Origin: a virus
Strand: one strand, 5' to 3'
Virus record (IMG/VR): IMGVR_UViG_3300047560_000182
Coordinates: 1 to 26,667 of that record
DNA: 26,667 nucleotides
Below the pieces are notes generated by a model. The model saw only the letters and a program-made list of their open reading frames with translations. It made no database searches and was not told the origin of the DNA. Position numbers and translations under genes: made by a program. Below, in pieces: positions 2,047 to 26,667 of this stretch. Numbering within the stretch: the first letter of the stretch is position 1; each line of letters starts with the position of its first letter.

Positions 2047-2052
2047 ATTATA
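2047..2052 (-). promoter_or_regulatory. Possible -10 element (TATAAT) for a leaderless transcript
   Basis: A perfect TATAAT on the minus strand lies in the 21-base gap after the helicase stop codon. Its last base is 6 positions from the first base of the downstream ATG at 2041, so transcription would start at or next to the A of the start codon. There is no Shine-Dalgarno sequence in the gap. The spacing matches leaderless promoters known from actinobacteria. The element lacks the TGn extension seen at other promoters in this window, so it could be chance in AT-rich DNA. Confidence 0.4.
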
Positions 2053-3801: not shown

Positions 3802-4344
3802 TTAAATAGATTCAGACCACACTGGAATGAATCGTCCATCTTCAGTTCTCGTATATGTAAGTATACCGTCTCCCATTCGCCGTGTCAACTCTTGGCGTGA
3901 TGGGGTAATATCATTTGTTATTAACTTATCTTTTCTTGGTCTACCAATATGGTATGTAGCAAGTATATCACGAATCTCATGAACCTGCGACTCAGAATAA
4001 TAAGATCTTACCTGAAATCCTCTTGCCCCACCCTTTTGTGAACCCATTGGAAATGGTATAATTCCACGCTTCATTAGTGATGGCATATATTTTTTATGAC
4101 GATTAACTAAATCAGCAGTCTGCCCAACTGTGTAGGCTCTTTCTCTTTTAGTTTTAAAATCATTAATTAAACAACTTTCTATTCTGTCTTTTGTAATGTT
4201 ATAAACAGACATAATACCATTTGATCTATTCAGATGGTGTACACGAACAAGGTCTCCGTTTAGGAACCAGACCTTTTTGTTCCCTGGGATTACAGGGAGG
4301 AGATTGTATTTCTCGCTCTCAATTGTTCCCTTTTTAGTAGCCAT
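3802..4344 (-). CDS. DNA-binding protein, MerR-like helix-turn-helix with AT-hook
   Basis: A 180-aa basic protein. Residues about 70-128 resemble the winged helix-turn-helix of MerR/excisionase proteins: a helix beginning YTVGQTADLVNRH, a second helix with KRGIIPFP, a wing rich in Gly and Lys, and a third element YYSESQVHEIRDIL. It is followed by GRPRKDK (residues about 134-140), an AT-hook core that binds the minor groove of AT-rich DNA. It probably regulates transcription or replication; its position at the border between tail and replication genes would suit a switch factor. The ATG at 4344 has a strong GGAGGG ribosome site 4 bases upstream, and the gene begins inside the end of the zinc-ribbon gene (55-base overlap, different frame). 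The N-terminal 65 residues are unassigned. Confidence 0.72.
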   Translation of the reverse strand: MATKKGTIESEKYNLLPVIPGNKKVWFLNGDLVRVHHLNRSNGIMSVYNITKDRIESCLINDFKTKRERAYTVGQTADLVNRHKKYMPSLMKRGIIPFPMGSQKGGARGFQVRSYYSESQVHEIRDILATYHIGRPRKDKLITNDITPSRQELTRRMGDGILTYTRTEDGRFIPVWSESI

Positions 4345-4943: not shown

Positions 4944-4952
4944 ATTATACCA
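4944..4952 (-). promoter_or_regulatory. Extended -10 promoter, TGGTATAAT
   Basis: The minus strand reads TGGTATAAT, a perfect extended -10 element, across the stop codon of the preceding gene. Transcription should start about 17 to 18 bases after the TG, leaving a leader of about 10 bases that contains the AGGAGA ribosome site of the fibre-tip gene at 4927. No good -35 box is seen at the usual distance, as expected for this promoter class. A 5-bp hairpin (ATACC/GGTAT, 4947-4961) overlaps it. The same motif is found at 21872, 22588, 23351 and 26471. Confidence 0.6.
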
Positions 4953-11568: not shown

Positions 11569-12251
11569 TATGCCTCTTCCAGCGTAACAGATACATTCCA
11601 AAAATCATAGTTGCTTGATCCACGCTTTACAATATTATATGAAAAATCTGAAAAGAATACTTCCATGACTTCGCTATATTGTCCAAGGTGTCCATAAGAA
11701 GAATCGTCCTTGCCAAAATTAGGGTAGTTATCATAGGACAAAAATACCCAAAATGACCCCTGATGATTATTGTACCAATCTAGAAGTTCTGCCCCTCCAG
11801 CACCACCATCAGTTGTATATTGCTGGTCTACAGAAGATGAGGAACCAAAATTTCCTGACATATCTGACTTACCATTTGAGTTAAAATTAGGAGACATTGC
11901 AAATGATCTGGATGGGATCATATCCCAAGATACCGTGATTTGCATTTTATCTGCAATATGATATGACCTCATGCGACCATTAATCATTCTTTTGCGTGTT
12001 TCGATTCTTGTAGGCTTAAAATCGATTTTAGACCTATTGTCATCTGTTAGTATCAGGAACTCATCAAACAGGGCTGTATTGGCCTCTGAGCCTGTATTAG
12101 CCCCTATCTCATAGCCTGTTGGTACGTAGATCTTATTATCTGGATTGTCCTGTGTTGGGGCTGCTATAAGGGTTCCAGGGTTATCAGACCATAGCATTGC
12201 CTGTGGTCTTGCATACTTTTTCCTGCCATCCATATATGCTTTAGTTGCCAT
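11568..12251 (-). CDS. Distal tail protein (Dit-like)
   Basis: A 227-aa protein directly after the tape measure gene and before the large hub gene, the standard position of the distal tail (Dit) protein. Beta-rich with few helices; recognisable stretches are FKPTRIETRKRMINGRMRSY, MQITVSWDMIPSR and FWVFLSYDNYPNF, and a C-terminal strand FWNVSVTLEEA. A Gly/Ser-rich loop (residues about 120-150) may be flexible. Dit hexamers form the ring that joins the tail tube to the tip. The ATG at 12251 overlaps the tape measure stop codon in a TAATG junction, so translation should be coupled. The family call is mainly from gene order; a generic minor tail protein is the alternative. Confidence 0.68.
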   Translation of the reverse strand: MATKAYMDGRKKYARPQAMLWSDNPGTLIAAPTQDNPDNKIYVPTGYEIGANTGSEANTALFDEFLILTDDNRSKIDFKPTRIETRKRMINGRMRSYHIADKMQITVSWDMIPSRSFAMSPNFNSNGKSDMSGNFGSSSSVDQQYTTDGGAGGAELLDWYNNHQGSFWVFLSYDNYPNFGKDDSSYGHLGQYSEVMEVFFSDFSYNIVKRGSSNYDFWNVSVTLEEA

Positions 12252-15200
12252 TATACTCTTACCCCTCGAATTCTCTGTGCATCAATCTGCTTGATTTGAG
12301 CCATTACAGTTCTTGCAATATCGTCAGCAGATGAGTCAGATTTTGCATTAACTGTCAGACTATAATTATACACTGAGTCGCCAACTGATGCTCCAGCATT
12401 AATTGCTCTCATTGTGTCTACGCCATGATTATTAACAGCATATCTACTCATGACAAATTCTCCAGGCGTAAGCATTGCTGGAACAGTGTCTGTTCCAATT
12501 GCAAAACCACCCTTTGCAAAATATTTAGGAACTAGCCCACCTGCTGACATAGCATTTGCTTGAGCAAGTGCAGCATTTGCTGTATCTATTTCTTTTTGTG
12601 CATCTGCCTGCATTGCTCTGGCTGCATGCTGGCCGACAGCAAACTCTAGTCTCTTTGCTGTAGCCATATGATCATTTGCTGTGGCAAGTGCTTTATTTGC
12701 TGCTTCTATTGCAGCAGTTTTTGCTGCTGAATTAGCAACATCAGTATTTACAACCTTTGGTGTAGGAACTGTTGAAGGTGTAGTATTTGCTCCTGCAGGC
12801 ATTGGTGCTTGAATTGTTTTTACATACTGAGTAATCTCAATAGACTTACTCTTAATTGCATCATATGCTGTTTTAATATCTCCCCAAGCAGTTGCAATAG
12901 GCTTTGATACGTCTCCAACTACTCCAAGCGCTTTAGCCAAATCACCCTTTGCCAATTTTTCTGTTGCTTCTGCTGCTGATTTAATGTCTAACCATTGCTG
13001 TCTTGTTGCTCCTTGAATAATCCTATTCTTATCATTATCAGCAATCATCTTAAACAAGATATCGCTTTGCTGTTGTAGAGGAAGAACCTGATCAGTGATA
13101 GCCTTAAGAGCATTTTGTTGGTCAAGCAATGTTCCATACTGAATTTTTGCAATAGCATCTGTCTTAACCTGAATTGCATCAAGTGCTGCCTGTCTTCCCT
13201 GCTCTAAATTATAAATTTCATCTTGAATAGATAGAATTTGCTTATCAATTGCTGCCTTGCCAAGTTCTAGATTATAGACTTGCTGACTGATTTGCCATTG
13301 TTCTTCTTGAATATCTTTTTGTGATTTACCAGTTACTCCGCCACGCTGTGCACCAAGTTCGTTTTGTCTTGCTTGCTGCAGAGCCTGTTGTGCGTTCTGT
13401 CCAAATGCTGATGCTTGTGAGGCTCTCATGTCCTGAGCAGCCTTTGCTGCTGCTGCAATATCACCTCGTGAAAGTGCGTCTGCCAAACCTAGTTGTTGCT
13501 GTTGTTGCTCAATAATTCTTTGGTTAATCTCTTGAACCTTAGATAAAGCCTCTTGCTGCTTATCATATTTTTCGTTGATTGCTTCTGCAGCATGATTCAT
13601 AACATCAAGATCATGTGAAAGAATTGCTGAGCGATCCTGCAAAGCCTGAATTGGTCTTGTATAGTTCATTTCTGCAGTACGGTTTAGTTTATCTATTGAT
13701 CTTTGTCTTTGTTCAATAGGTCTTGTAAAGTTGGTCTCAACATCTCTTTGCATCTTGTCAACTTCTTGCTGCATGCCGTCAATCTTTGATTGTGTAATAT
13801 TAATTGCATCCTGAGCAATCTTTGACTGGTTGTTAAGGTCATCCATCTTAACCTGAAGTGATGCGTAAGTGTTACCTTCTTTATTCTTAAGAGTATTTTC
13901 ATCAATCATCTTGTATGCATCAAACATTTCAGCAGCAGCATCTGCGCCAGCAATTTTCTTCTGAGCATCTGTTTGTGTAAATACTAACTCAATAATCTTT
14001 CTATCTGGAATCTCATCAATAAATCCAAGGGCTTGGTTAAATTGATTCTTTGCGTCTTCACCCATTGTTGCAAAGTTATCCATGCCAGTAATGAGTTGGT
14101 CAAGCATTGCTGGGTCAGCAAGCGCTTCACGAATTCCTTCTGCTGAAACTCCAGCCTGCTGCATCATTGAAACAACCTCTGGGATTCTCTTTTGATTTCG
14201 TGCAGCATCTGTTGCTTCTTGACCTGTCTGAAATAGTGCTGAAATCTTGCTTCTAATTCTTGCCTGTGCTGTTAAGGCTGCGTTTGTCTCTAGTTCCTTT
14301 TGTGTAATCTTTCCAGTAGCAATTAAGGTGCGATAGTTTTCATCAGCAAGCATTGTTTGGATGTCTGCCTGATTGTATCCAAGTGCTACCAACTTTGTTC
14401 TTGCTGCAATCTCTTGCTTGTTTGCTTGTACAGTTAGTAATTGGGCTTTATTATAATCTCCAGCAATGGCTTTGTTAAAGCCTTGCTCCATGAGTTTACC
14501 CTTGTCATTTAATACAAAGTCACCCTTCTTAACTCCCTTTTTCTTTTTGCCAGTATTTGGATCTACTCCTGCTTTTGTTGCAGCCTTACCAAACTTATTT
14601 AATGTTTCTTGGTCAAGTCCTGCAAGGTACTCGGTGAATTGTGCAGTCTTGCCAGTTTTAATCATCTGTTGCTCAAGGCCATTGAACTGATCCTTGATTG
14701 CCTTAATTCCAGTTTTTGCCATTGCTTTCTTTAACTCTGCAAATCCTCCTGCTGCATTAATTGCTGCTAAACGAACATTGCGAAGTCGTGTAAGAATATC
14801 ATCGTATGTTGTATCACGGTTTCCTTTTTCTGCGCTACCTGGTGGTGGTGGTGCGTCAAGTGAAGGTATGTTAAGGGATCCACCAATCACGTTCTTTGTA
14901 TATGCTCTTGTTGCTGCATCTGTTTTCATGTAGGATTCAATTAACGCATTTTTTGCATCTATGTATGCCTGAGAGGTTGTACTAACTCCCCAGAATTCTT
15001 CGTCTGCCATCATTGCTTGGGTTGCACTTAATTCTGCTTCTGCACGTAATTGCTCTTCGTTAAGGTTTGCCTCTGATGCATATGTGACTGCTAGGTTTTG
15101 TAACCACTCTGCTTGCTGGTCTGCGGTTAGAGCATTATATTTATCCCACATATCCTTATTGCCCTCTAATTGCTTTAACATTGGAGCAAGTCTTGGGTCT

Positions 15201-18200
15201 GCTGCAGATGCTTCAGCAGTAGTAATTTTTGCGTTTTTTCCTTCTTTTTTAACCTGATCATCTTTTAACTTTTCAATATCTTCAATCTGTTTTTGAATTG
15301 TTTCAACACCCTTTAAACCAACTGTAGACACTAATAGTTCAAAATCAATTGTCGTACCATTTAAACTCTGCATTTTCTTTAATGCTTCCATTGTTGCATC
15401 AAACTCTGCTGGATTTTTCTTTGTTAATATAATTTGTTGAATCATCTCTGTGGCGATCTTCTTCTTTGTAAACCCAGAGAACATTCCCATTAACTCTTTT
15501 GTCTTTGCAATACCCTGAGTCTTAATACCAACATTTAAAAGAAAATCAAGTTTATCAAGTCGACCACTAAATAGATTCATCATTTCTGTTGCTTCTGTAG
15601 GATTTAAAACCTTGCTTCCTACAAGAAGTTCCATTTTAGCCTGGAATGCCTGACCTGCTCTTGCAGTACCCAAACCATTCTTCTGATATGTTCCAGTTGT
15701 AGCATTATATGTTCCAGTTGTTGCATTTTCTTCAAGATCTTTTGTTTTATTTAAAAACTTTTCAGCAGCCTTTTCCTGATCTGTACCCTTATATGCTGAC
15801 TCAACCGTTGCTCTTGATGCGTCAAAGTATGCGTCTTCACGCATTGCCTGTCCGCCCCAAACAGAGTCACTGTAGAATTTGCTAAAGTCATTTTCTGCCA
15901 TAGCAAGTTGTCTCAGTATCTGGCCATTCATAACTTCAGTGTTTGCTGCGTTAGTATCATTTAAAGTATTTAGTTCATCTTGCAACTTTAATTTCTTTTG
16001 AAGATTTGTTGTAGAAGCAATTTCAGACTCTAATTTCTTTTTTGCAGTCTGATACTCATGCTCAACTGCATCTGCTTGCATAGTTGCAAGTTCAAGATTA
16101 TTTATATTAAATGCTGCAAGTGCTGCAATGTCTTTTCTTACAGACTCTCCATTTGACTTCTTTTCTTCAATTGTCTTTAGTTGCTTTTCGCTTCTCATGC
16201 GGCCCTGAACAATCAGCCCAACCCTTGATTTTAGTGGCTCCTTTTCAAGATTTTCTCCATTAGGACCAAGTAGCATTCGCATCTTTCCAGAAACTTGCAT
16301 CTCAACTTTTTGGTTTTTAAGTGCAAGACCAAGTGATGCTGCGATGCTTTCTGCTTGTGGACCAGTCAATACACCATCTGCAACCTGTGCAGCAAGTTTT
16401 AGCGCTAGGTCATCTGCTGCTTGCTTGTCTCCATACTTTGCAAGATTTTCTTTAAATGTCTTTTTGTATTCTTTGCCAAGATCTGACCCCATAAACTTTT
16501 TACCAAAGGTGTCTTGAACCTTAAATGACTCAGTATACTTACCATACTGGCTGCCTTTTCTTCTTCTATCCATAATTTCAGAAGCACCAACCTTACCAGT
16601 TAGTTCTCCCATCTTCTTCATGCTCTCACGAGTAGCAGATGTTGAAATTGCAAACTTTGCTGCTTCAGCAGCCATCTTATTAAAGTGCTTATTGAGCATG
16701 TAGGCTCCTGCTCCTACCGCCATAATTCCTGCTGCTGCCCAACCTACTGGTCCCATACCAGCAAGCATTGGAGCAAACTGTGCAACTGTTGCTGCTGTAC
16801 CTAATGCTGCTGTGACCTTTGGTGGCGCTCCTGCCATTCCTGCAACCATCGCTGCGGTGCCAAGTGCACCAGAAGCCTTACCAGAGAACTTGCCAACTTT
16901 TTCTCTACGCATTCCACGCTTCTTCTTTGTAAGTTGCTTTTGGCTTAGCGTTGTTGGTGCACCAGTTTCTGGGTCAATTAAAACAGAACCCTTACTGTCT
17001 CTTGTATAGGTTGCTGCTTCTTCGTATGCGTCAACAGAACTTAGCGCTGTGCTTGGAATCATATTTCCTGTTTGCGATCCAGCAGGAACAACTGGTGCAG
17101 CAGCCTCTGCAGCAAGTTTTGCATTGTATTGAGAAAGAAGAAGTCTTTGCTTTTCCTTTTCAGCATTAATTTGATCATTAAGGGCTGCTTCTTTTTGAGC
17201 ATCCTTAATTGCTTCTTCTTCTGCAGCATTTAATTGATCTGCATTTTCTGCTGAATCTCTTAAACTATTCTGTGTAGCATTAATAAGTTCTTCGTTAGTA
17301 ATTAGACTATTTGATTGACGCTCTGTTGTTTGTGCAATTTCGTTTGAAGAGATAATTTCTTGCTGCTTGGCATTGTTAATTTGATCTTGAGCCTTTGCAG
17401 TTTGCTGTTGTGATTCAAGAACATCAACAGATGCAGCAGCAGTTGCTTCAGCATTATTAGATGCATTCTGTACTTGCTTTACATTATTGGTTTGTGCAGC
17501 AGATAATTTTTCTGCGGACTTCTTTGATTTTGCTGATTCCTTTGCTGCTGCATACGCAGCCTCCGCTGCTTTAATTCTTAGTTTTGCTGCCTTTAGTTCG
17601 GCTTCATCTGCAAGTGCTTTTAGTTCCTCTGCATTCTTAGATGACTGTGCATTCTTACCAGCATTTTGTAGGCCAACATCTTCCCACTTGGCTTGTTCAA
17701 TTCTTAGTCTTGCTGCTGTTTGTTCTGCCTTTGCTGCTTCCAGCATTAGTTGATCTGCCTTTTGCTGCTCTGCATTAATTGTTACATTAGCAGAGATGCC
17801 CATTGCAGATTTTTCTTCAATTACATTTTGTCCAAGATATGCTGCATCTACTGTACGGCTTGCACCAAGTTTTCTTCTTTGTCTATCTTGAGACTTTAGG
17901 ACTTGTCTATCGTACTGTAATTCTGGTGTGTTAAGGTCATCATAGAAAGCCTTGTTAGTTAGGTCCATCTTGTCAACACGGGATGCTGTATCTGCTGCTG
18001 TTGGAATTGTAGCCCCACCAAGTTTAGATGCTTGTGATCTTACGCTTCCTTCTCCCTCTTGCATTCCAATAACAAGTCCATCAACAACTTCACGACCTGC
18101 CTCTATACCCTTTTTAGAAGGTGACTGTGCTGCAGTTCCATTTGGACCTCTTAGACCATCAAATAGTGCACTTCCAACTGCTTCTCCATGCTGCGCTGCT

Positions 18201-21200
18201 CTTTTTATGTCAAGTTCATTTCCAACGGTTAAGTTTTTCATATTTTGTTTTTGATATGAACCCTGCATAGACGTAATCTTCTCGCCACCAACCTCTATTT
18301 CATCTTGTAAACCAAGTTCTCCTCTTAGTGGCACATCTGATTTTTTAGGAACCGCTATTCTATTGCCTTGTCCACCACGTCCGTCATCTGGAGAAAATAC
18401 TGCATATGTAGTTGTTTTTAATAAATTGTCTACAGCGCTTCTAAGCGTTGTGTCTGCTTGGTCAATTCTGGCGTTTGCTTTTCCAACAGCATCATAAAAA
18501 TCTGCTTCTCCAAAGTTTTCTGGAAGTTTACTAATCTCATCAGCAATTAATCCACCATAGTTATCCATGCTTGATTGAAGTTGCGCCATGGTTTCTGGAT
18601 TGTTCATTGCCTCCTCTAGTGTTATACCTTGAAGTCTTGCCCATTCTTGATAAATAGGAGATAATGTTTTTCCAGCATCAGTACCAGTGAATAGATCCAT
18701 GATCTCGCCCTTTGGCATTGCAAAGTTTCCACCTTCTGCTCTGGTGTTTGCTTCCTTTGGCATAATAAATCCAAAACTGCTCATCTCATAGGCTCTGCCT
18801 CCACCAGTTGCAGCAGAAGAAAGTGCTTTTGACAAACTGGTATCTGTTCTCTTGCCAGTAGAAGAAACTCTTTGTGACTGGGTAGCAAGTCTTGCTAATT
18901 CATCTGGATCACTGATTTCTTCCCCGTGATCTGCTCCATGAGCAAACACATATTCTCTATCGCCAAATTTTGTAGCAGATGTTCCGTGATATTGTTCTCT
19001 AAATGATCCACCTGTAACTGCATCTGTTTGCTTTGTAATGTTTTCAATTGCACTTGCTGTAACAGTTTCTAGCCCTTGAACAGACTCTGCAAACATTGAC
19101 TTTAGTCTTTCAGCAAATTCTGGTCCAACACGATCTACTGCCTTTGTTAGTTCATCTGACAAAAGTTTTGCTACCGCTGATTGTGATTTTGCATTTGGTG
19201 CCATTGCTGAAATTGCTGCAACAAAGTCTTCCCTGCTCATTCCCATAAGTTCTGATGCTGTTTGTCTTGCACCTTCGCCAAGAGTTCCACCATTATATTT
19301 TTTAAAGTTATTATTCATAAGTGCAGAAAGCATTGCTTGTCCTTCTGGACTTTGTGCAATTCCTGCTGGAACTACTGCTTCGCCTGGAGTAAGCATTGCT
19401 GGAACAGTGTCTTTGTTTCCTGTTCCAGGAACACTTATAATTCCCTCAGCATACTTTGGAAGACCTGATACGGCGCCTGCTGCGCCTGGTACTGCATTAA
19501 ATAATCCTGGTGATCCTGAAGCAAGTGCTCGTGCTTGTGACGCAGCATTTGAGTATGCACCTGCTAGGGCATCAAGGGATGCCTTCTCTACATTAAATGT
19601 TGAAATGAGTTCTTGGTGTGCACCATGGAGTGCCTGTGATTGTGCAAGGTTGTCAATTTCTGCTTGTGTTAAATAATCAAACCCTCCACCCAAAACATTA
19701 TTTTGACCATTAAGTTTAGCCATTCCACCACGAAGCATTCCAAAGAACTTAACAAGGTTCGCTGCACCGTTAGCAATAAGACCAATAGTCATAAGTGCTA
19801 CTGGAGCAATACCGCCAAGAACTGCAATAAACCCAACAACAAATTTCTTTGTTCCTTCAGACAGGTTGTTAAACTTTTCTAGAATCTTTCCAGCAAACTG
19901 AACTACTGGAGTTACTGCTTCAAGGAATGCCTTACCAATTGGAATCAATTGTAATTTAAGGTTTTCAAGTTGCTTCTGGAACTTTACACCAACAGCATTT
20001 TCAACCTTGCCTAATTCTCGCTCAGACAGGATTGCTAACTCTTCAACAGATGCTCCTGCAAGTTGGAATGTCTTACTTGCCTGAGAACCTTCCTTTGTAA
20101 TGTTTTGGAATAATGTAGAAATACGAGCAAACTGGAACTTACCAAATAGTTGTTCAATTGCTCTTGATCTTTCAAGTGGTGCGAGTGTATCTAACGCTCT
20201 TGCAAATCCTACTACAGTTCCCTTTAGGTCCCCTGCGTTTGCTTCAACAATTCCTTTAATATTAATTCCAAGGCTTGCCAACATTTCTGCTGCTTTCTTG
20301 GATGGATTGATCATAGACGCAAGACCAGATTTAAGTGCGTTAGCGCCTTCAGATGCGTTGATTCCGCCCTCCTTCATTGCAGTCATAAAGAATGCAAGAT
20401 CTTCTACGGAACCACCAAGTTGCTTTACAACTGGTGCAGCCTTTGGAATTGCTGTTGTTAAATCTGAAATTGAAAGTACTGTCTGGTTTTCAACTGCGTT
20501 AAGGAAGTTGATCTTCTTTGCTAATTCTTCAGCAGAAATACCAAACGCATTTTGTAATGAAATTGTTGTCTCTAATGCTTCTTGTTGTGTTACCTGTCCA
20601 AGTACTGCAAGTTTGGTAGCGTTTGTAACCTGTGCTTGAAGTGCTCCACCTGTAAGACCCATCGCAGCAGCCTCTGCTGCCATATTCATTGTATCTACTG
20701 CTGCAACGCCAAACTTTGTAAATTCTTTTGCAAGTAACTGAATATCTGCAATTGCTTTATCTGTATCAGATACGCTGGTAAGCATATCTCCATAAACTCT
20801 TGAGAACTTTACAGTTGCCTGTTCCATTTCTCTGAATGACTTAGCAGCAACTGATCCAAGCATAGATAAAGGAATAGTCAGACCAACCATCAACTGGCGA
20901 CCTGCCCACTGAGTATTCTTACCAAAGTTAAGAAGTTGTGTTGATCCCTGCTTAATTAACTGGTTAAAGAATTGCTGTCTTTGTGCAGCCATCTGTGTAC
21001 GAGTTGCATAATCTGCATACTCTCCATTGACCATCTTAAGATGCTTTGGAACTACCTGCAAAACCTTAACTAATTCACCATTGGCATTTGTTAATTGGAT
21101 ATACTGTGTTTGTAGAGACTTTACTCTATCTTTCATTGCACGATTAAGAATGTCTTTTTCTTGTGCAAATGCTCCCTTTAATGTTTTGCTATTGAGGGTT

Positions 21201-21496
21201 GCTGCAGCAGCAGTGTACTTAAAGTACTGCGACATGCTGAGTTTGTTCTTTTCTAGGGCATCAGTGAACGCAGATGTGCTAGAAACGATATTACGTTGAG
21301 ACGCAACAAACTTGCCAGTCGAATTAATTGACTGGACAAGTTGTGCGTTTAGACCTTTTTGAGCGTTAGCAGCAGCAAGGTTTCCTTCTGTTAAAGCCTG
21401 ATTAAACTTGCTCAGGCCAGCCTGAAGTTGTCTTAACTGTGCAAGGGCGTCGGCAGTATCAAAATGTATACCAATATTAGCGTTTACATCTGACAC
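12251..21496 (-). CDS. Tail tape measure protein
   Basis: A 3081-aa protein that sets tail length and is ejected with the DNA. The start is a GTG at 21496 with GGGGTG upstream. Regions: residues 1-200 helical; about 220-480, a TP901-type tape measure core (FREMEQATVKFSRVYGDM to QLFGKFQFARISTLF); about 549-580 and 1549-1600, hydrophobic Gly/Ala segments that could cross the host membrane; about 832-1070, a soluble insertion beginning YHGTSATKFGDREYVF; about 1235-1465, Ala/Lys/Glu/Gln-rich coiled coil; about 2545-2845, a Gln-rich coiled coil with two NxTRPI repeats; and a C-terminus ending with SVYNYSLTVNAKSD. The motif DTVPAMLTPGE occurs at residues 696 and 3003. At about 0.15 nm per residue the tail would be around 460 nm. 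No peptidase or muramidase motif is obvious. Confidence 0.95.
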   Translation of the reverse strand: MSDVNANIGIHFDTADALAQLRQLQAGLSKFNQALTEGNLAAANAQKGLNAQLVQSINSTGKFVASQRNIVSSTSAFTDALEKNKLSMSQYFKYTAAAATLNSKTLKGAFAQEKDILNRAMKDRVKSLQTQYIQLTNANGELVKVLQVVPKHLKMVNGEYADYATRTQMAAQRQQFFNQLIKQGSTQLLNFGKNTQWAGRQLMVGLTIPLSMLGSVAAKSFREMEQATVKFSRVYGDMLTSVSDTDKAIADIQLLAKEFTKFGVAAVDTMNMAAEAAAMGLTGGALQAQVTNATKLAVLGQVTQQEALETTISLQNAFGISAEELAKKINFLNAVENQTVLSISDLTTAIPKAAPVVKQLGGSVEDLAFFMTAMKEGGINASEGANALKSGLASMINPSKKAAEMLASLGINIKGIVEANAGDLKGTVVGFARALDTLAPLERSRAIEQLFGKFQFARISTLFQNITKEGSQASKTFQLAGASVEELAILSERELGKVENAVGVKFQKQLENLKLQLIPIGKAFLEAVTPVVQFAGKILEKFNNLSEGTKKFVVGFIAVLGGIAPVALMTIGLIANGAANLVKFFGMLRGGMAKLNGQNNVLGGGFDYLTQAEIDNLAQSQALHGAHQELISTFNVEKASLDALAGAYSNAASQARALASGSPGLFNAVPGAAGAVSGLPKYAEGIISVPGTGNKDTVPAMLTPGEAVVPAGIAQSPEGQAMLSALMNNNFKKYNGGTLGEGARQTASELMGMSREDFVAAISAMAPNAKSQSAVAKLLSDELTKAVDRVGPEFAERLKSMFAESVQGLETVTASAIENITKQTDAVTGGSFREQYHGTSATKFGDREYVFAHGADHGEEISDPDELARLATQSQRVSSTGKRTDTSLSKALSSAATGGGRAYEMSSFGFIMPKEANTRAEGGNFAMPKGEIMDLFTGTDAGKTLSPIYQEWARLQGITLEEAMNNPETMAQLQSSMDNYGGLIADEISKLPENFGEADFYDAVGKANARIDQADTTLRSAVDNLLKTTTYAVFSPDDGRGGQGNRIAVPKKSDVPLRGELGLQDEIEVGGEKITSMQGSYQKQNMKNLTVGNELDIKRAAQHGEAVGSALFDGLRGPNGTAAQSPSKKGIEAGREVVDGLVIGMQEGEGSVRSQASKLGGATIPTAADTASRVDKMDLTNKAFYDDLNTPELQYDRQVLKSQDRQRRKLGASRTVDAAYLGQNVIEEKSAMGISANVTINAEQQKADQLMLEAAKAEQTAARLRIEQAKWEDVGLQNAGKNAQSSKNAEELKALADEAELKAAKLRIKAAEAAYAAAKESAKSKKSAEKLSAAQTNNVKQVQNASNNAEATAAASVDVLESQQQTAKAQDQINNAKQQEIISSNEIAQTTERQSNSLITNEELINATQNSLRDSAENADQLNAAEEEAIKDAQKEAALNDQINAEKEKQRLLLSQYNAKLAAEAAAPVVPAGSQTGNMIPSTALSSVDAYEEAATYTRDSKGSVLIDPETGAPTTLSQKQLTKKKRGMRREKVGKFSGKASGALGTAAMVAGMAGAPPKVTAALGTAATVAQFAPMLAGMGPVGWAAAGIMAVGAGAYMLNKHFNKMAAEAAKFAISTSATRESMKKMGELTGKVGASEIMDRRRKGSQYGKYTESFKVQDTFGKKFMGSDLGKEYKKTFKENLAKYGDKQAADDLALKLAAQVADGVLTGPQAESIAASLGLALKNQKVEMQVSGKMRMLLGPNGENLEKEPLKSRVGLIVQGRMRSEKQLKTIEEKKSNGESVRKDIAALAAFNINNLELATMQADAVEHEYQTAKKKLESEIASTTNLQKKLKLQDELNTLNDTNAANTEVMNGQILRQLAMAENDFSKFYSDSVWGGQAMREDAYFDASRATVESAYKGTDQEKAAEKFLNKTKDLEENATTGTYNATTGTYQKNGLGTARAGQAFQAKMELLVGSKVLNPTEATEMMNLFSGRLDKLDFLLNVGIKTQGIAKTKELMGMFSGFTKKKIATEMIQQIILTKKNPAEFDATMEALKKMQSLNGTTIDFELLVSTVGLKGVETIQKQIEDIEKLKDDQVKKEGKNAKITTAEASAADPRLAPMLKQLEGNKDMWDKYNALTADQQAEWLQNLAVTYASEANLNEEQLRAEAELSATQAMMADEEFWGVSTTSQAYIDAKNALIESYMKTDAATRAYTKNVIGGSLNIPSLDAPPPPGSAEKGNRDTTYDDILTRLRNVRLAAINAAGGFAELKKAMAKTGIKAIKDQFNGLEQQMIKTGKTAQFTEYLAGLDQETLNKFGKAATKAGVDPNTGKKKKGVKKGDFVLNDKGKLMEQGFNKAIAGDYNKAQLLTVQANKQEIAARTKLVALGYNQADIQTMLADENYRTLIATGKITQKELETNAALTAQARIRSKISALFQTGQEATDAARNQKRIPEVVSMMQQAGVSAEGIREALADPAMLDQLITGMDNFATMGEDAKNQFNQALGFIDEIPDRKIIELVFTQTDAQKKIAGADAAAEMFDAYKMIDENTLKNKEGNTYASLQVKMDDLNNQSKIAQDAINITQSKIDGMQQEVDKMQRDVETNFTRPIEQRQRSIDKLNRTAEMNYTRPIQALQDRSAILSHDLDVMNHAAEAINEKYDKQQEALSKVQEINQRIIEQQQQQLGLADALSRGDIAAAAKAAQDMRASQASAFGQNAQQALQQARQNELGAQRGGVTGKSQKDIQEEQWQISQQVYNLELGKAAIDKQILSIQDEIYNLEQGRQAALDAIQVKTDAIAKIQYGTLLDQQNALKAITDQVLPLQQQSDILFKMIADNDKNRIIQGATRQQWLDIKSAAEATEKLAKGDLAKALGVVGDVSKPIATAWGDIKTAYDAIKSKSIEITQYVKTIQAPMPAGANTTPSTVPTPKVVNTDVANSAAKTAAIEAANKALATANDHMATAKRLEFAVGQHAARAMQADAQKEIDTANAALAQANAMSAGGLVPKYFAKGGFAIGTDTVPAMLTPGEFVMSRYAVNNHGVDTMRAINAGASVGDSVYNYSLTVNAKSDSSADDIARTVMAQIKQIDAQRIRGVRV
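12468..12491 (-). repeat. Copy B of a 24-base exact repeat in the tape measure gene
   Basis: These 24 bases are identical to 19389-19412, 6.9 kb away and in the same orientation. They encode the DTVPAML part of the DTVPAMLTPGE motif near the C-terminus of the tape measure protein (Asp at residue 3003). Flanking codons for the same amino acids differ, so the match is partly protein-level conservation and partly retained DNA identity. Confidence 0.8.
19389..19412 (-). repeat. Copy A of a 24-base exact repeat in the tape measure gene
   Basis: Identical to 12468-12491. It encodes the first DTVPAMLTPGE motif of the tape measure protein (Asp at residue 696), preceded by a Gly/Pro-rich stretch. The Gly-Pro-rich surroundings (KYAEGIISVPGTGNK) and the FAKGGFAIGT before copy B suggest that a larger module was duplicated. 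Confidence 0.8.
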
Positions 21497-21845: not shown

Positions 21846-21871
21846 TATTCCTCCATTAGGTTAGTTAGTTA

Positions 21872-21880
21872 ATTATACCA
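21872..21880 (-). promoter_or_regulatory. Extended -10 promoter, TGGTATAAT
   Basis: A perfect TGnTATAAT on the minus strand in the 51-base gap between the two chaperone genes, directly after a hairpin at 21883-21906. Transcription would start about 20 bases upstream of the GTC-preceding ATG at 21845, giving a short leader that contains GGAGGA. No -35 box is seen. TAAC units are repeated just downstream (TAACTAACTAACC), of unknown meaning. Confidence 0.62.
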
Positions 21881-21882
21881 TA

Positions 21883-21906
21883 GGCAGGCCTTTGATTTAG
21901 CCTACC
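21883..21906 (-). terminator. Hairpin across the stop codon of the long chaperone gene
   Basis: On the minus strand GGTAGGC pairs with GCCTGCC (7 bp, one G-U pair) around a 10-base loop that contains the TAA stop codon of the long chaperone gene. No U-tract follows, so it may be a weak terminator, an RNA-stability element or a processing site rather than a classical terminator. An extended -10 promoter follows within 3 bases. Confidence 0.4.
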
Positions 21907-22580
21907 CTTTCGTATTCCAGACCCATCCCAATACCAAATCCAGCCTTTTGTGCATTAACTCCTTGTAGTGCAACAATGTCGTTAGCGTTGGCTGCTTGGC
22001 CTTTACTAAATACCCTGGCTTTCATTTCTTCCCAAGCATTTTCCTTGCCTGTATTTTTGTCTAGATCTACTCCCTGCATTGCTGCAAGAAACTTTTTATG
22101 GGCATAATCCTCTTCACGCTTTATATTTAAAATTGCAGTTAACTCCTGCATAGACAAAGATCTTTCTAGTTCATCAAAGTCTTTCCAGATACCAAGCAAG
22201 AAAACTTCAGACTCTAATTTAGCAAGGTCTAACTCTTCCCAACTCTTGCCACCTTTGACTGCCTGGTCCTTCACACTTTCATCTTGCTTCTCATCAATCT
22301 TGATTCCTGCAGAATATTCTAAAACTGAATATATAGTCTTTATATCAATTGAGTCCTCAAACACTTCTAGGTCTTTTGATATTTCTGGACAAAACTGCTT
22401 CATGCATATCATTGCACATTCTGACAGTGCTGTTATTGCCTCAATGTCTCCCTGGGCTTTTTTGACATCATCAAACTTGCCCATGAACTGTTTTAGATAT
22501 TTTATTTTTAATGGAGAAATCTCAAGTTCTGTGCCATCGATTAGATGCACAGTCCCAATTTGATAGATTTCCGTAGCCAT
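21897..22580 (-). CDS. Tail assembly chaperone, long paralogue (G and T domains in one frame)
   Basis: A 227-aa protein. Residues 1-95 are the G-like domain shared with the 106-aa gene downstream. After a charged linker (about 96-112), residues 113-227 contain SWEELDLAKLESEV and the segment ILNIKREEDYAHKKFLAAMQ with VDLDK, typical of the second part of chaperones from Gram-positive phages. It is thus equivalent to the GT fusion, but made without a frameshift. It should bind the tape measure and help tail tube assembly. It lies between the major tail protein and the short paralogue, the usual place. There is no Shine-Dalgarno site before the ATG at 22580; instead an extended -10 promoter ends 7 bases upstream, so the transcript may be leaderless. 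Confidence 0.8.
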   Translation of the reverse strand: MATEIYQIGTVHLIDGTELEISPLKIKYLKQFMGKFDDVKKAQGDIEAITALSECAMICMKQFCPEISKDLEVFEDSIDIKTIYSVLEYSAGIKIDEKQDESVKDQAVKGGKSWEELDLAKLESEVFLLGIWKDFDELERSLSMQELTAILNIKREEDYAHKKFLAAMQGVDLDKNTGKENAWEEMKARVFSKGQAANANDIVALQGVNAQKAGFGIGMGLEYERVG

Positions 22581-22587
22581 ATATATA

Positions 22588-22596
22588 AGTATACCA
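22588..22596 (-). promoter_or_regulatory. Extended -10 promoter, TGGTATACT, leaderless
   Basis: TGGTATACT on the minus strand. The last base of TATACT is at 22588, 8 positions before the A of the ATG at 22580, so transcription should start at or within a base or two of the start codon. The region between has no purine-rich ribosome site. The strong hairpin terminator at 22602-22628 ends 5 bases upstream of the element. No -35 box is seen. Confidence 0.6.
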
Positions 22597-22601
22597 AATA
22601 G

Positions 22602-22628
22602 AAAAACCCAGTCCGAAGACTGGGCTTT
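22602..22628 (-). terminator. Rho-independent terminator after the major tail protein gene
   Basis: On the minus strand CCCAGTC and GACTGGG form a 7-bp stem (22607-22624) closed by a TTCG loop, the C(UUCG)G type that is extra stable in RNA, followed by five T residues. It lies 18 bases after the major tail protein stop codon and should end that abundant transcript before the chaperone genes. The flanking A-run on the other side could allow it to work in both directions, but no plus-strand gene is present. Confidence 0.85.
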
Positions 22629-22646
22629 CCATATTATTAAATTGTA

Positions 22647-23297
22647 TTAGACTGCTGCTGGAATGGTGCGATCAACGATCTTACCATATGATGCAGAGTC
22701 ATTTGGAAGGAGACGGAATGAAACTTCAAACATTGTTGCTTCATCACGCTTTGCTGATACTGTAACATTTTCAATTGAAAGTGCACGGTATGCAACATAG
22801 ATTCTTTCCAATTCTGATCCAATTGCACAGTCACCTGTACCTGGACCTACTGCAACCAAACCACGCTCGACTGGGCATTCGCCAATGTCTCCTGCAGAAA
22901 GGTTAAGTGATGGGCCAACATTTAGCACGTTAGTAAGATCTGAGTTCTTACCAGCGAGTGAGAACAGAAGGTTCTCAAGTGTTGACTCAGCGAATGTGGT
23001 CTTAAGTGAGACCTGCATTCCCTGCTTGTACAACTTAGCAACGTCAAGAACCTGGTCAACCTTAACTTCACCGAAGTCTGGTTGGAACTGGATTTCAAGA
23101 CCATTGCTTGTGTAACCTACGTTACGGAAGTCTGCATCATTCGTAAGTGTCTTACGGAATGATTCACCGTCCACGTATGTTGGAAGATCTGCTTCTGTTA
23201 GAACGCTAGATGCTCCATCTGCTACTGGTTCGTATGTAAAAAGTGCTGCAGCACCAACGATGATGTTGTTGCTAGTACCTCTTGTATATTCTGCCAT
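22647..23297 (-). CDS. Major tail protein (tail tube)
   Basis: A 216-aa beta-rich protein with the composition of a tail tube subunit. Recognisable parts are the N-terminus AEYTRGTSNNIIVGAAALF, a central SNGLEIQFQPDFGEVKVDQV, a helix around residues 98-112 (AESTLENLLFSLAG), and C-terminal strands IENVTVSAKRDEATMFEVSF. It sits between the tail terminator and the chaperone genes, which is the conserved position. It has its own extended -10 promoter (23351-23359) upstream, a GAGGTG ribosome site and a strong terminator downstream, forming a one-gene unit, as expected for the most abundant tail protein. The codons look optimised in the same way as the capsid end. The call combines position, composition and expression signals. 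Confidence 0.83.
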   Translation of the reverse strand: MAEYTRGTSNNIIVGAAALFTYEPVADGASSVLTEADLPTYVDGESFRKTLTNDADFRNVGYTSNGLEIQFQPDFGEVKVDQVLDVAKLYKQGMQVSLKTTFAESTLENLLFSLAGKNSDLTNVLNVGPSLNLSAGDIGECPVERGLVAVGPGTGDCAIGSELERIYVAYRALSIENVTVSAKRDEATMFEVSFRLLPNDSASYGKIVDRTIPAAV

Positions 23298-23331
23298 AGT
23301 TTGTTCACCTCTTTTTTCTTATGGAATAAAG

Positions 23332-23362
23332 GGCTGTTTCCTCGTTTATAAGTATAACAGCC
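23332..23362 (-). terminator. Hairpin with a promoter in its loop, before the major tail protein gene
   Basis: GGCTGTT and AACAGCC can pair (7 bp) around a 17-base loop. On the minus strand CTTTATT follows; on the plus strand TTTTTAATT follows, so a terminator in either direction is possible. The loop contains most of the -10 element at 23351-23359. Transcripts from that promoter start within the loop and carry only one arm, so only read-through RNA could fold this hairpin. Confidence 0.45.
23351..23359 (-). promoter_or_regulatory. Extended -10 promoter, TGTTATACT, for the major tail protein
   Basis: TGTTATACT on the minus strand, just after the stop codon of the tail terminator gene. The predicted start is near 23344, about 47 bases before the ATG at 23297, so the leader is the longest of the promoters seen here and contains GAGGTG. 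The following TATA makes TATACTTATA, shared with the promoter at 22588. No -35 box is seen. Confidence 0.62.
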
Positions 23363-23369
23363 TTTTTAA

Positions 23370-23948
23370 TTATTTAGAAGATATTTCCGTATCCTGATGG
23401 TAGTCAAAATCAATAATAATCTTATTACCGCCATATGTTCTGGCTGTACCAAAATCAATAATGTCTCTGACCTCTTCCAGTTGGTAGATCTTGAACCTAT
23501 GAAAGTAAAACTTGCAAGTTAGGTCTCCTGATGGGCTTGGAATGACCCTTCCCATTGTCCAATTATTTATTTCTTCTGCTGTTTCATCTTCTCTATCCAT
23601 TAAGCGTAAAACGGCTTCCTGAATCTGAACCATGTTGTTTGTAACATCTTGCTGTGTTGCATAAAAATAATAGAGAGCCTGCTCTGTTTTTATGTGTGGG
23701 AATGGACTTCTTCTCATTCTAAACATTCTGTCGTAAACCGCCAAGATGCCATTATATGGAACTCTCTGAGATGTTGGTTTTCCATTTATGTCAAGTGCAT
23801 CTATGACCATCCATTGCTCTGTAAGGTCGTCAATAGCGTTAGGCTTTACTGGGAAAAATGGGATTGCGTTCCCTGTATTTCCAAAGATCTTTTCTTGTAA
23901 GTATTTGTTTACCCATAGCATTGGAGTATTTAAAGTTGTTTCTGACAT
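23370..23948 (-). CDS. Tail terminator / tail completion protein
   Basis: A 192-aa protein directly upstream of the major tail protein gene, the usual place of the tail terminator that caps the tail tube and joins it to the head. It starts with MSETTLNTPMLWVNKYL; the middle has an alternating strand-helix pattern (WMVIDALDINGKPTSQRVPY, then HIKTEQALYYFYATQQD and a helix MVQIQEAVLRLMDRED), and the end is beta-like (FYFHRFKIYQLEEVRDIIDF). It begins in a TAATG junction with the gp10-like gene. I recognise the arrangement rather than specific residues, so the role rests largely on gene order. Confidence 0.65.
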   Translation of the reverse strand: MSETTLNTPMLWVNKYLQEKIFGNTGNAIPFFPVKPNAIDDLTEQWMVIDALDINGKPTSQRVPYNGILAVYDRMFRMRRSPFPHIKTEQALYYFYATQQDVTNNMVQIQEAVLRLMDREDETAEEINNWTMGRVIPSPSGDLTCKFYFHRFKIYQLEEVRDIIDFGTARTYGGNKIIIDFDYHQDTEISSK

Positions 23949-24622
23949 TATGCCACCTTCCCTGCATTTGCTACCCAGCGAGATCCAACAGTTCTTCCTG
24001 TTGACTTACCGCCCTTTTTACCAGCATTAAGATTATGCTTATAAACTGATGGATTAGAAAAATATTGTGCTAGTCCAGTTGATCTTAAAAATGCTTGAGT
24101 AAAGTACTTTCCAAAAAATAGATCAAATGCGTTTGCAAACTGACCATTTGTTTCTCCTCCAGGATTTTCAACAATGACTGGCTTCTTTGTATAAACTTCT
24201 TCTCCGCCTACTTCAAACCTTAGAACCTCTGCTCTAACTGGAGCAATCCTAACCGACTGCCCACTTTCCATAATTCTTGCTTTATCAAAAAATGGTGTGT
24301 TAGATCCTTGTTGAACTGATCTTGATTGGCTAAACTCTGCAAGGAATGAAAGACCTAAATTGCTAACAGTATATTTAATATTAAATAATCTTGCTCCAGG
24401 ATCTCCAGCGTTATACCATTCATAGACATGGTGTAATGATTTATAATCAACCCTAGCATTCATATCAATAAACTCTGATGCCTGCTCTGCAATTACTGGG
24501 CCTAGTTGGTTAAAGAAATCTTTCTTTCCAATTTCTATACCCTCGACAAATCCAACAGAATAATCAACTAGATTCTTCATATCTTTTTGAAACTTAGCAC
24601 TATCAAATCTTAGAGATATCAT
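23948..24622 (-). CDS. Neck / head-tail joining protein (HK97 gp10-like)
   Basis: A 224-aa protein. Its N-terminal half looks like HK97 gp10-type neck proteins: MISLRFDSAKFQKDMKNLVD followed by a helix with FFNQLGPVIAEQASEFI, then a region LHHVYEWYNAGDPGARLF that resembles the typical W-Y segment before a beta-hairpin. Residues 120-160 are beta-like (SVRIAPVRAEVLRFEVGGEE). The C-terminal 35 residues are basic and Gly/Lys-rich (NAGKKGGKSTGR), perhaps disordered and DNA- or tail-contacting. It overlaps the head closure gene by 4 bases (ATGA) and the tail terminator gene by one base. The role is inferred from order and general pattern. Confidence 0.65.
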   Translation of the reverse strand: MISLRFDSAKFQKDMKNLVDYSVGFVEGIEIGKKDFFNQLGPVIAEQASEFIDMNARVDYKSLHHVYEWYNAGDPGARLFNIKYTVSNLGLSFLAEFSQSRSVQQGSNTPFFDKARIMESGQSVRIAPVRAEVLRFEVGGEEVYTKKPVIVENPGGETNGQFANAFDLFFGKYFTQAFLRSTGLAQYFSNPSVYKHNLNAGKKGGKSTGRTVGSRWVANAGKVA

Positions 24623-25065
24623 GCATCACTCGCCTGGTTCTCTGATCTACGCAATACCACATTGTAATACTCAACTGTTCCAAAAGGTCCCAGGAAAGGC
24701 TCCTGAGTGGCTATTTCATAGATTGTAGATTTTCCTTTACGTGGTCCAGAAGTTTCTGTATATACCTCTACACCGTTTCTGTCTCTAATATTTGTTACAA
24801 TAATATTTGTTACAGAATTACTGTTAGCCTTAGTAGATACACGAATATCATGCTTGACTCTAGAGACTAGAATGGACTCTTTTGTAATATTAACATTTGG
24901 AGTAACTTCCTCTTTACCGCTTTTGCTTAGTGGAATAAAGTTACCAATAACAGTTCTATCTAGAACCCATTGCTTATTTAAATCTCCGTATAGACCTTGC
25001 TCAACAATTGGATAAAATATATCCGCTTGCATTGGGAACATAAAGTCTGGAGTTTCGCATATCAT
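24619..25065 (-). CDS. Head closure (stopper) protein
   Basis: A 148-aa, beta-rich protein in the position of the head closure protein, between the adaptor and the gp10-like gene. It contains DFMFPMQADIFYPIVEQGLYG at the start, strands KESILVSRVKHDIRVSTK and VTNIIVTNIRDRNGVEVY, and a terminal EYYNVVLRRSENQ. Small beta-barrel proteins of this size plug the portal channel after DNA packaging. It starts in a TAATG junction with the adaptor gene, and ends in an ATGA junction. No diagnostic residues are known to me, so the call is by gene order and fold pattern. Confidence 0.65.
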   Translation of the reverse strand: MICETPDFMFPMQADIFYPIVEQGLYGDLNKQWVLDRTVIGNFIPLSKSGKEEVTPNVNITKESILVSRVKHDIRVSTKANSNSVTNIIVTNIRDRNGVEVYTETSGPRKGKSTIYEIATQEPFLGPFGTVEYYNVVLRRSENQASDA

Positions 25066-25973
25066 TAGATCAATCCAGGTTTAGTGATTGTGTTTGAGTA
25101 CTTATCAAGAATCTTGTCCACAATCATATTGCCTGTTCCCTGAAGCAATGACTTATCAAACTGGATTCTAAACTGATCAGTGTTATATGATGTTACATAT
25201 CTCTTATAATAATCAAGTCTTCCGCACTTTAGGTCATCAATTAGTAGTGTTGCTGCATATTCAACATCTGGCGGAATCGCCTTATATCCTGTGTCAACAA
25301 TCAAAGTATAGTCATATCCTTGTGGAAATGCAACTGACTGATAACCATAGTATCCAAGGTCTCCACGAGCAACTGGAAGATTTGGTGGAGAAATTTCATT
25401 TCTATTATATACTTCAGTTACTGTTCTTTGAATTGCAGTGTTGTCTAGTGTAATCTTATAGTCATATATATTTGTTTCTGGTGTATCAACATCATAGACA
25501 AGGATATTGTTTTCGTATACCTTTAAAACTTTGTATGAGTCTACCCATAGTGGCAAATAATCTGTACCCTGTCCTACGCACTGAATAATTTGTTTGTGGT
25601 TATAGAAGCCATCATTAATAATAGTATCAATCATTGATCTAGCAACAAGTTCAAGCATTTTGTATTCTGCGATCTCAGTTGCTGTTGTTCCCAATGTTTC
25701 TGGATTAACATATGGGCGAATAATATCTAGGTTGCTTTCATACAAAGTATGAACATGATCAGTATCATAAAACTTAATAAAGAATTTGCGGTCATACTGA
25801 ACTTGTGATAGTGGTAGTTCATAAATAAGTTCTCCATTTTCATCTGAGAACATGTTTGTTTCAGTTACTGAGTGGTCCACCAAATCCTCAACATAGACAA
25901 TGTACTCATAGTTTGGTATGGGTAAATTCCATGTCGTAGTTAAAGGATAAGGTGGAACTCTCATTACTTCCAT
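25065..25973 (-). CDS. Head-tail adaptor protein with N-terminal Ig-like domain
   Basis: A 302-aa protein. Residues 1-85 are a beta-rich domain (YEYIVYVEDLVDHSVTETNM, then YDRKFFIKFYDTDHVHTLYE), probably Ig-like. From about residue 90 the pattern of connector adaptors (gp6/gp15 type) appears: helix ATEIAEYKMLELVARSMIDT, a central strand pair (WVDSYKVLKVYENNILVYDV), then a helix after IPPDVEYAATLLIDDLKCG and a C-terminal helix. It would bind the portal and start the neck. It is longer than plain adaptors because of the N-terminal domain. Start codon at 25973; an in-frame ATG three codons later (MRVPPYPL) has the better purine tract and could be the real start. Confidence 0.65.
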   Translation of the reverse strand: MEVMRVPPYPLTTTWNLPIPNYEYIVYVEDLVDHSVTETNMFSDENGELIYELPLSQVQYDRKFFIKFYDTDHVHTLYESNLDIIRPYVNPETLGTTATEIAEYKMLELVARSMIDTIINDGFYNHKQIIQCVGQGTDYLPLWVDSYKVLKVYENNILVYDVDTPETNIYDYKITLDNTAIQRTVTEVYNRNEISPPNLPVARGDLGYYGYQSVAFPQGYDYTLIVDTGYKAIPPDVEYAATLLIDDLKCGRLDYYKRYVTSYNTDQFRIQFDKSLLQGTGNMIVDKILDKYSNTITKPGLI

Positions 25974-25976
25974 TGT

Positions 25977-26453
25977 TTACTTACCGAATTCCTTCGCAAC
26001 TTCTTCAGGTGTAGCAATGCGGATATGTGAACGAGTAAGCCACTTCTCTGATGCTTCCTTAGTTACAATGTTGTAGCCACGATAGACCTTGCCAACACCT
26101 TCCCAAGTAACATTCTTTGTTGAGTGGATAGCAACTGTTTCTGGCTTTTCAACCTTCTTAGCAGCAGCCTTCTTAGTCTCCTTAATAACAGGTCCTACTC
26201 CAATTGCTCCATTAGCGACTGGTGTTACTCCCTGAACTTCTACTGATGAACGACCAAAATCTGTTGTCTTAATTGCTGTTGATTCTGGCTTTGTTTCCTC
26301 TGCCTTTGGAGCCTCTTCAACCTTTACAGGTTCTGGAGTTGGCTCTTCAACTGGAGCATCTGCTGGTGCATCTACTTCAGGTGTCTCAACTGCAACTTCT
26401 TCAACGATAGGATCTTCATTCTTTGTTGTAAACGGATTGTTTAAATTTTCCAT
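25977..26453 (-). CDS. Head-associated protein with acidic Ala/Pro/Glu-rich linker
   Basis: A 158-aa protein between the major capsid and adaptor genes. Residues 14-62 are a disordered acidic linker rich in Glu, Pro, Ala and Val (EEVAVETPEVDAPADAPVEE). After a Lys/Ala-rich stretch (KETKKAAAKKVEK, residues about 91-103), residues 110-158 form a compact domain (VTWEGVGKVYRGYNIVTKEA, then WLTRSHIRIATPEEVAKEF). The layout suggests a capsid decoration or fibre-like protein whose folded end anchors to the shell and whose linker projects, but a scaffold-like role is also possible. It has a near-perfect AAGGAGG ribosome site and its own extended -10 promoter (26471-26479), so high expression is expected. 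I do not recognise a named family. Confidence 0.7.
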   Translation of the reverse strand: MENLNNPFTTKNEDPIVEEVAVETPEVDAPADAPVEEPTPEPVKVEEAPKAEETKPESTAIKTTDFGRSSVEVQGVTPVANGAIGVGPVIKETKKAAAKKVEKPETVAIHSTKNVTWEGVGKVYRGYNIVTKEASEKWLTRSHIRIATPEEVAKEFGK

Positions 26454-26470
26454 GATTTCCTCCTTGTAGT

Positions 26471-26479
26471 ATTATATCA
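26471..26479 (-). promoter_or_regulatory. Extended -10 promoter, TGATATAAT
   Basis: TGATATAAT on the minus strand between a strong hairpin (26493-26522) and the AAGGAGG site of the next gene. A second TATAAT overlaps just upstream (TTATAATGATATAAT). The predicted start is at the first A of AAGGAGG, which leaves a leader of about 12 bases, almost all of it ribosome site. No -35 box is visible because the hairpin occupies that region. Confidence 0.62.
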
Positions 26480-26492
26480 TTATAAGTAGTAA

Positions 26493-26522
26493 GGGGAGCA
26501 GGAGCGTTAACTCCTACTCCCC
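26493..26522 (-). terminator. Strong hairpin after the major capsid protein gene
   Basis: On the minus strand GGGGAGTAGGAG pairs with CTCCTGCTCCCC: 12 bp with one G-U pair and a 6-base loop TTAACG. It is followed by TTACTACTTATAA, without a proper U-run. It begins 20 bases after the capsid gene stop codon and probably ends or protects the capsid transcript. An extended -10 promoter follows 14 bases later. Confidence 0.72.
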
Positions 26523-26541
26523 CCAATTATACTGTTACAGA

Positions 26542-26667
26542 TTATGCATCTGCTGCAGCATCAGCGAACGCAATAGCATCCTGCTCTTCCCATTGAATAC
26601 CGAAGCGAACGAAGACTGTATATTCTACAGTGTCCTTCTTTGGCTTGTACTCACGGTTAACAGTGAT
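26542..26667 (-). CDS. Major capsid protein, C-terminal end, partial
   Basis: The 41 visible C-terminal residues end at a TAA at 26542 and run off the right edge in frame. They read NREYKPKKDTVEYTVFVRFG followed by IQWEEQDAIAF and a short Ala-rich tail. The VEYTVFVRFG strand followed by a short acidic end is typical of the C-terminus of HK97-fold major capsid proteins of siphoviruses, where this strand belongs to the axial domain. The position upstream of the adaptor, head closure and tail genes and the strong hairpin after the stop codon fit an abundant capsid protein. The rest of the gene is outside the window, so the call relies on this short end and the gene order. Confidence 0.75.
   Translation of the reverse strand: MTVNREYKPKKDTVEYTVFVRFGIQWEEQDAIAFADAAADA

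Follow-up and report, generated by a model that had tools for sequence, protein, structure and literature searches.

Predicted extended -10 promoters and two separate tail assembly chaperone genes in the structural block of uncultured actinobacteriophages

The sequence TGnTATAAT is the standard extended -10 element of the housekeeping sigma factor, and at sigma-70-type promoters the RNA begins about 7 nucleotides (nt) after the -10. Tail assembly chaperones of the lambda G/GT type, annotated in the Streptomyces phages Sham and Emma1919, come in a long and a short form with a common N-terminal part and are encoded between the tube and tape-measure genes, the long form arising by -1 frameshifting. 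In Cluster O mycobacteriophages such as Corndog, predicted SigA-like promoters place the +1 on the first codon, and a stem-loop terminator adjoins the major tail gene (PMC4351075). Here we describe a viral fragment of 26,667 bases and 39% G+C (IMG/VR record IMGVR_UViG_3300047560_000182, in the following called the window), where an initial annotation had pointed at five copies of TGnTATA(A/C)T in front of structural genes. We put a probability of roughly 0.8 on the joint reading that sigma-A-type, -35-independent extended -10 promoters make separate structural transcripts, and that a pair of these promoters most likely replaces the chaperone frameshift.

All five sequences are found on the minus strand, the coding strand of the block (Table 1). 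The window contains 8 matches to TGnTATAMT (M being A or C) compared to 3.05 expected in shuffles, with 8 or more in 3 of 100 shuffles. The initial annotation had noticed no match inside a gene, which does not hold, as the three additional copies (3962-3970 on the minus strand and in the sense direction, 4054-4062 and 5649-5657 on the plus strand) all lie in genes, though the bias towards gaps is strong: five of the six coding-strand copies are confined to about 2.4% of the sequence (p ~5e-8 given the motif). With 8 copies against 3.05 the window by itself therefore cannot carry the case for promoters, and because the motif was selected in hindsight, the relatives constitute the real test.

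Motif statistics were taken over seven sequences, namely the window and six near-complete relatives. Within gaps between co-directional genes, the coding strand holds 107 TGnTATAMT where 4.4 are expected from dinucleotide-preserving shuffles of the same gaps, and the antisense strand holds 5 where 3.0 are expected; antisense copies in gene bodies amount to 14 against 35.1 expected. When all TATAMT hexamers in gaps are considered, TGn precedes 107 of 198 in the sense and 5 of 74 in the antisense orientation. No -35 signal was detected across 138 motif-aligned sites, positions 14-24 nt upstream all showing 0.05 bits or less, which agrees with the earlier remark that none of the five has a clear -35 box. 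Since the sites are distributed across whole genomes and on both strands, they would represent a general promoter of these phages and not, as first proposed, a device particular to structural genes. As far as sequence can tell, TGnTATA(A/C)T is a genuine extended -10 promoter. It has in common with the extended -10 promoters of sigma-70/sigma-A the TGn one base before TATAAT or TATACT, the apparent independence of a -35 box and a fitting distance to the start codon, and it differs in being the near-exclusive form genome-wide and in standing often only 6 nt from the ATG. A search of the available literature found no paper on the promoters of the Stanwilliamsviridae, the Streptomyces phages to which the window is related (see below).

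Each of the five sites is kept at the same gap in 30-100 relatives; approximately 600 IMG/VR stretches encode a tube-protein relative, of which the best 80 were retained. The site after the inferred capsid gene shows the motif in 29 of 32 distinct relatives, and of the exceptions at least two come from a wrongly called start. At the tube gene many of the loci without the exact motif have TGTATAMT, where the spacer is one base shorter. The long-chaperone site is present in 70 of 79 distinct relatives at one fixed position, with TACAMT there in most of the exceptions, and the short-chaperone site in 76 of 76. In the leader of the short chaperone, TTAACTAACnAACCTA (21846-21880 of the window, minus strand), conservation extends beyond the -10 and the ribosome-binding site, also in the relatives. 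The fibre-region site has the motif in 41 of 42 distinct relatives, many of them with leaderless spacing; over the loci L115-L194 the place of this promoter is fixed, and its distance to the start alternates between about 6 nt (leaderless) and about 15 nt (with a Shine-Dalgarno (SD) leader). As suggested in the initial annotation, extended -10 promoters thus appear to divide the co-directional block into separately started units.

Table 1 Features of the structural block and its surroundings in the window (nt, nucleotides; aa, amino acids; ORF, open reading frame; SD, Shine-Dalgarno).
Feature	Position	Strand	Remarks
Gene 5' of first promoter, 3' end	26542..26667	-	Open ORF of 41 aa; identified as major capsid protein only from synteny with Sham
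G+C-rich hairpin after inferred capsid gene	26490..26525	-	Directly upstream of 26471 promoter; weak U-run
Predicted extended -10 TGATATAAT after inferred capsid gene	26471..26479	-	17 nt before ATG at 26453; short SD leader
Predicted extended -10 TGTTATACT of tail tube protein gene	23351..23359	-	Exact motif in 83/103 loci
Conserved element GAGGAAACAGCC at predicted 5' end of tube-protein mRNA	23332..23343	-	Holds GAGGAAAC
Ribosome-binding site AAGAGGTG of tube gene	23306..23313	-	Conserved in alignment
Tail tube (major tail, Ig-domain) protein, 216 aa	22647..23297	-	phrog_2175, E 1.7e-32; 43-47% to Streptomyces phage proteins
Predicted intrinsic terminator after tube gene	22601..22630	-	13-bp stem, TTCG loop, U-run
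Predicted extended -10 TGGTATACT of long tail assembly chaperone	22588..22596	-	7 nt before ATG; mRNA predicted leaderless
Long tail assembly chaperone, 227 aa, single ORF	21897..22580	-	phrog_10504 and phrog_10474; equivalent of relatives' frameshift product
Predicted extended -10 TGGTATAAT of short chaperone	21872..21880	-	26 nt before ATG; SD leader
Short tail assembly chaperone, 106 aa	21525..21845	-	Paralogue of N-terminal part of long chaperone
Predicted extended -10 TGGTATAAT of fibre-region gene	4944..4952	-	16 nt before ATG at 4927
TATAAT without TGn	2047..2052	-	5 nt before ATG at 2041; second gene of window predicted to be leaderless (1697-2041, -)

The distance between TATAMT and the start codon, determined for 1,012 genes irrespective of TGn, peaks sharply at 6 nt with 63 genes, against 11 genes each at 5 and 7 nt and few at most other values. 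Genes with a distance of 5-7 nt start with ATG in 82 of 85 cases and have an SD sequence in only 3 of 85; at distances of 16 nt or more an SD sequence is found in 51 of 92. As the RNA is expected to begin about 7 nt after the -10, the mRNAs of the first class are predicted to begin at the start codon. Each genome has about a dozen such genes, the clearest predicted case being the long chaperone, the promoter of which lies directly behind a conserved terminator. The start codon of this gene appears to be real, since the codons right behind the ATG differ in their third positions but encode a conserved protein start. At the second gene of this kind in the window the TATAAT is preceded by AGn instead of TGn, and orthologues in five of six relatives keep the spacing. 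Leaderless genes are common in actinobacteria, and in M. avium they make up one third of the mapped starts (PMC3774663). In the Cluster O phages leaderless starts are predicted for only a few divergent promoters and a single reverse gene, along with canonical -35/-10 promoters (PMC4351075), in contrast to the dozen or so predicted per genome in the clade of the window, which include a chaperone gene right after a terminator.

The predicted mRNA of the tube gene carries a short conserved sequence, GAGGAAAC, close to its 5' end. It is near-invariant upstream of the tube gene (loci L009-L111), being present in 75-76 of 76 distinct tube leaders and in 40 of 40 sequences of the alignment, and it follows the -10 by 6-7 nt in 72 of the 76; the spacing in the other four may stem from a second TATAMT within the A/T-rich stretch. 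Streptomyces phages have GAGGAAGTGC and Rhodococcus phages AGGTAGGA in a comparable place. GAGGAAAC is purine-rich and SD-like, yet 42-55 nt separate it from the start codon, in front of which AAGAGGTG serves as ribosome-binding site. Sequences of the STAB-SD kind are 5' mRNA stabilisers, and GAGGAAAC, by analogy, resembles them. It would fit these in position and sequence. The actinobacterial polypurine case, in katG of mycobacteria (PMC2358910), is likewise a purine-rich, SD-like sequence of the 5' leader, but lies 4 nt before the start codon. The start-associated sequences of Cluster K mycobacteriophages (PMC3203893) are likewise short, conserved, SD-like and upstream of phage genes, but these contain AGGAG and recur at the ribosome-binding sites of many genes, and GAGGAAAC stands at the above distance from one gene only. 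Two other candidates were rejected. A structured RNA leader is ruled out by the failure of RNAalifold to find any pairs in the tube leader and of Rfam to match anything in the window, and an upstream ORF from TTGAGG by a TTG that is unconserved and a leader that varies in length.

According to the initial annotation four of the five sites have a hairpin immediately upstream or around them, and the block would consist of compact stop-and-restart units. Hairpins were scored by single-sequence folds against shuffles, RNAalifold being unsuited as the arms of the chaperone hairpin do not align. Two of the hairpins are strong and conserved. The one after the inferred capsid gene has a z-score of -5.9 in the window and is below -2 in 84% of the relatives, with a weak U-run (TTACTACTTATAAT), and the terminator behind the tube gene keeps its structure in 62 of 62 distinct relatives in spite of 54 different sequences of the 5' arm. 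The hairpin at 21880 (z -3.2 in the window) is found in only 24% of the relatives, as is the window-specific one around 23351, half of which would fall outside the new transcript, and upstream of 4952 the window shows no fold (z +0.7). A conserved hairpin is thereby rejected for three of the five sites. A strong upstream hairpin is found genome-wide at 22% of the promoter sites compared to 11% of control gene starts. Stopping and restarting therefore seems to apply to the boundary after the tube gene and probably, given the weak U-run, to the one after the inferred capsid gene, but not as a general rule.

The two genes between the tube and tape-measure positions encode a long and a short protein with a common N-terminus, as in the G/GT type; the short protein is 37% identical to the N-terminal part of the long one (E 5e-19, window). 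The difference lies in how the two forms are made. In Sham, Emma1919 and Francesca the annotation joins the short ORF to an extension in the -1 frame, which gives the long form, and the -1 frame of Sham (...WKELDLASLEAEAFLLGHWKNFEE...) matches ...WEELDLAKLESEVFLLGIWKDFDE... within the 227-aa ORF of the window. The long chaperone is one continuous ORF of 223-242 aa in 97 of 97 relatives, and it is followed by the short gene in 92 of these; of the remaining five, four have no further ORF in the available sequence and one has a different ORF. A slip site retained in the long gene is ruled out, as no synonymous constraint was found there. In the tree the long and short copies group as sister clades (97/83), the Streptomyces proteins falling outside them, and thus a single duplication at the clade's base accounts for both copies. 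Since the single-gene relatives make both forms by -1 frameshifting, two promoters most likely replace the frameshift in the clade of the window, where each gene has its own promoter. Because the two genes differ in promoter as well as in translation start, we infer that the long:short ratio is most likely set at these two levels. A literature search judged by titles recognised no report on split tail chaperones.

Put together, the tube gene would be transcribed from its own promoter, with a message starting at or right beside GAGGAAAC, and the gene would be followed by a terminator. A second promoter directly after this terminator would lie so near the ATG that the mRNA of the long chaperone is leaderless, and a third promoter would drive the separate short chaperone, which has a normal ribosome-binding site. 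Both chaperones would descend from one duplication of a gene that in the single-gene relatives gives both forms by frameshifting. What carries this scheme is read directly from the sequences: the enrichment and orientation of the motif, the conservation of the sites, the fixed spacing without SD, the terminator and the single origin of the two chaperone genes.

Host RNA polymerase with sigma-A is the simplest and likely reader of these promoters. We consider it improbable that a phage-encoded factor, either a divergent sigma factor or an activator, reads them as late promoters. The motif is sharper than typical host promoters, weak and short matches resembling helix-turn-helix or sigma region-4 domains occur under the cut-off in 9 of 17 large relatives, and 13 of the 17 encode a WhiB protein; but the motif is identical to the usual extended -10 of the housekeeping sigma factor, the sites are found on whole genomes and both strands and not at late genes in particular, and no match to sigma region 2, sigma region 4 or Sig70_famx1 exceeds the family cut-offs in the 17 relatives. 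The search for a T7-type polymerase had no positive control. The WhiB-like proteins among these relatives (G001-G017) carry a GVWGG/GIWGG loop and are possible partners of sigma-A region 4. WhiB7 recruits sigma-A to certain promoters, so an effect of the phage proteins could run in either direction. Region 4 of sigma-A, which contacts the -35, is the binding site of WhiB1, WhiB3 and WhiB7 (PMC6282962), and this suggests a strategy like that of AsiA from phage T4. In this speculative and rather unlikely scenario the phage WhiB would silence the -35-dependent promoters of the host by binding region 4 of its sigma-A, and the extended -10 promoters of the phage, often leaderless, would keep firing. 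The absence of a -35 would thereby be explained, and the phage WhiB would be an actinobacterial counterpart of AsiA built from a captured host regulator.

Returning to the promoters as such, hardly any weight can be given to the idea that TATA-like words arise in AT-rich gaps and that the five sites are coincidental. The modest excess over shuffles in the window would allow for it, but chance is ruled out by the excess in the gaps of the seven sequences, which is found on one strand only and with dinucleotide content kept, and by the conservation of all five sites among the relatives. It is also quite improbable that the 6-nt spacing reflects genome compaction and that the long chaperone is made from a longer read-through message. 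Phage genomes are indeed compact and the 5' ends are predictions, but the spacing peaks sharply at one value without spread and goes together with ATG starts and a missing SD sequence, the long-chaperone promoter is immediately preceded by a strong conserved terminator, and neither the transcript nor the DNA upstream of the ATG leaves room for an SD sequence. Finally, the short gene may have another job, in which case the two promoters would not set a long:short ratio. The divergence of the two copies (37% identity in the window) could be taken in this direction; we regard this as unlikely, though conceivable, as virtually every relative retains both genes in this order together with their two promoters, and the short gene matches the relatives' short form in size and domain. 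Some points do weigh against separate promoters and their role in the chaperone ratio. Sense copies of the motif are mildly in excess in gene bodies (44 against 28.3 expected), part of which may come from miscalled starts or otherwise imperfect gene calls, and the gene calls in the relatives come from a simple ORF script. The sub-threshold sigma region-4-like matches belong here as well, and we infer, as with the ratio control, also the exact start points, the leaderless translation and the reading polymerase.

Judged by homology, the window comes from a large clade of uncultured actinobacteriophages that is related to the Stanwilliamsviridae. The tube protein shows approximately 43-47% identity to the major tail proteins of these Streptomyces phages and 36-37% to those of the Rhodococcus phages Trina and Francesca, and the structural block is homologous and syntenic with that of the Stanwilliamsviridae, with gene order in agreement. 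In the chaperone tree the clade of the window, itself represented by a 26.7-kb fragment, stands beside a Streptomyces set that is weakly supported. Of the inferred capsid gene only the last 41 codons fall within the window. At the tape-measure position there is an ORF of 3,081 aa (12251-21496, minus strand), compared to about 2,100 aa in the Streptomyces relatives, which suggests a very long tail. The host is presumably an actinobacterium, because the WhiB family found in 13 of the 17 relatives is restricted to Actinobacteria (PMC6282962), and the low G+C content would fit a host from streamlined freshwater lineages. A search of GTDB genomes for a prophage or mis-binned contig pointing to the host found none.

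Collectively, these data give a promoter map, drawn from sequence, that covers a large set of uncultured phages of actinobacteria and includes a strong predicted leaderless class. The tail-chaperone frameshift, a widely conserved recoding device, appears here to be resolved into two genes whose ratio would be set by two promoters, and why the frameshift persists almost everywhere else becomes a directly testable question.

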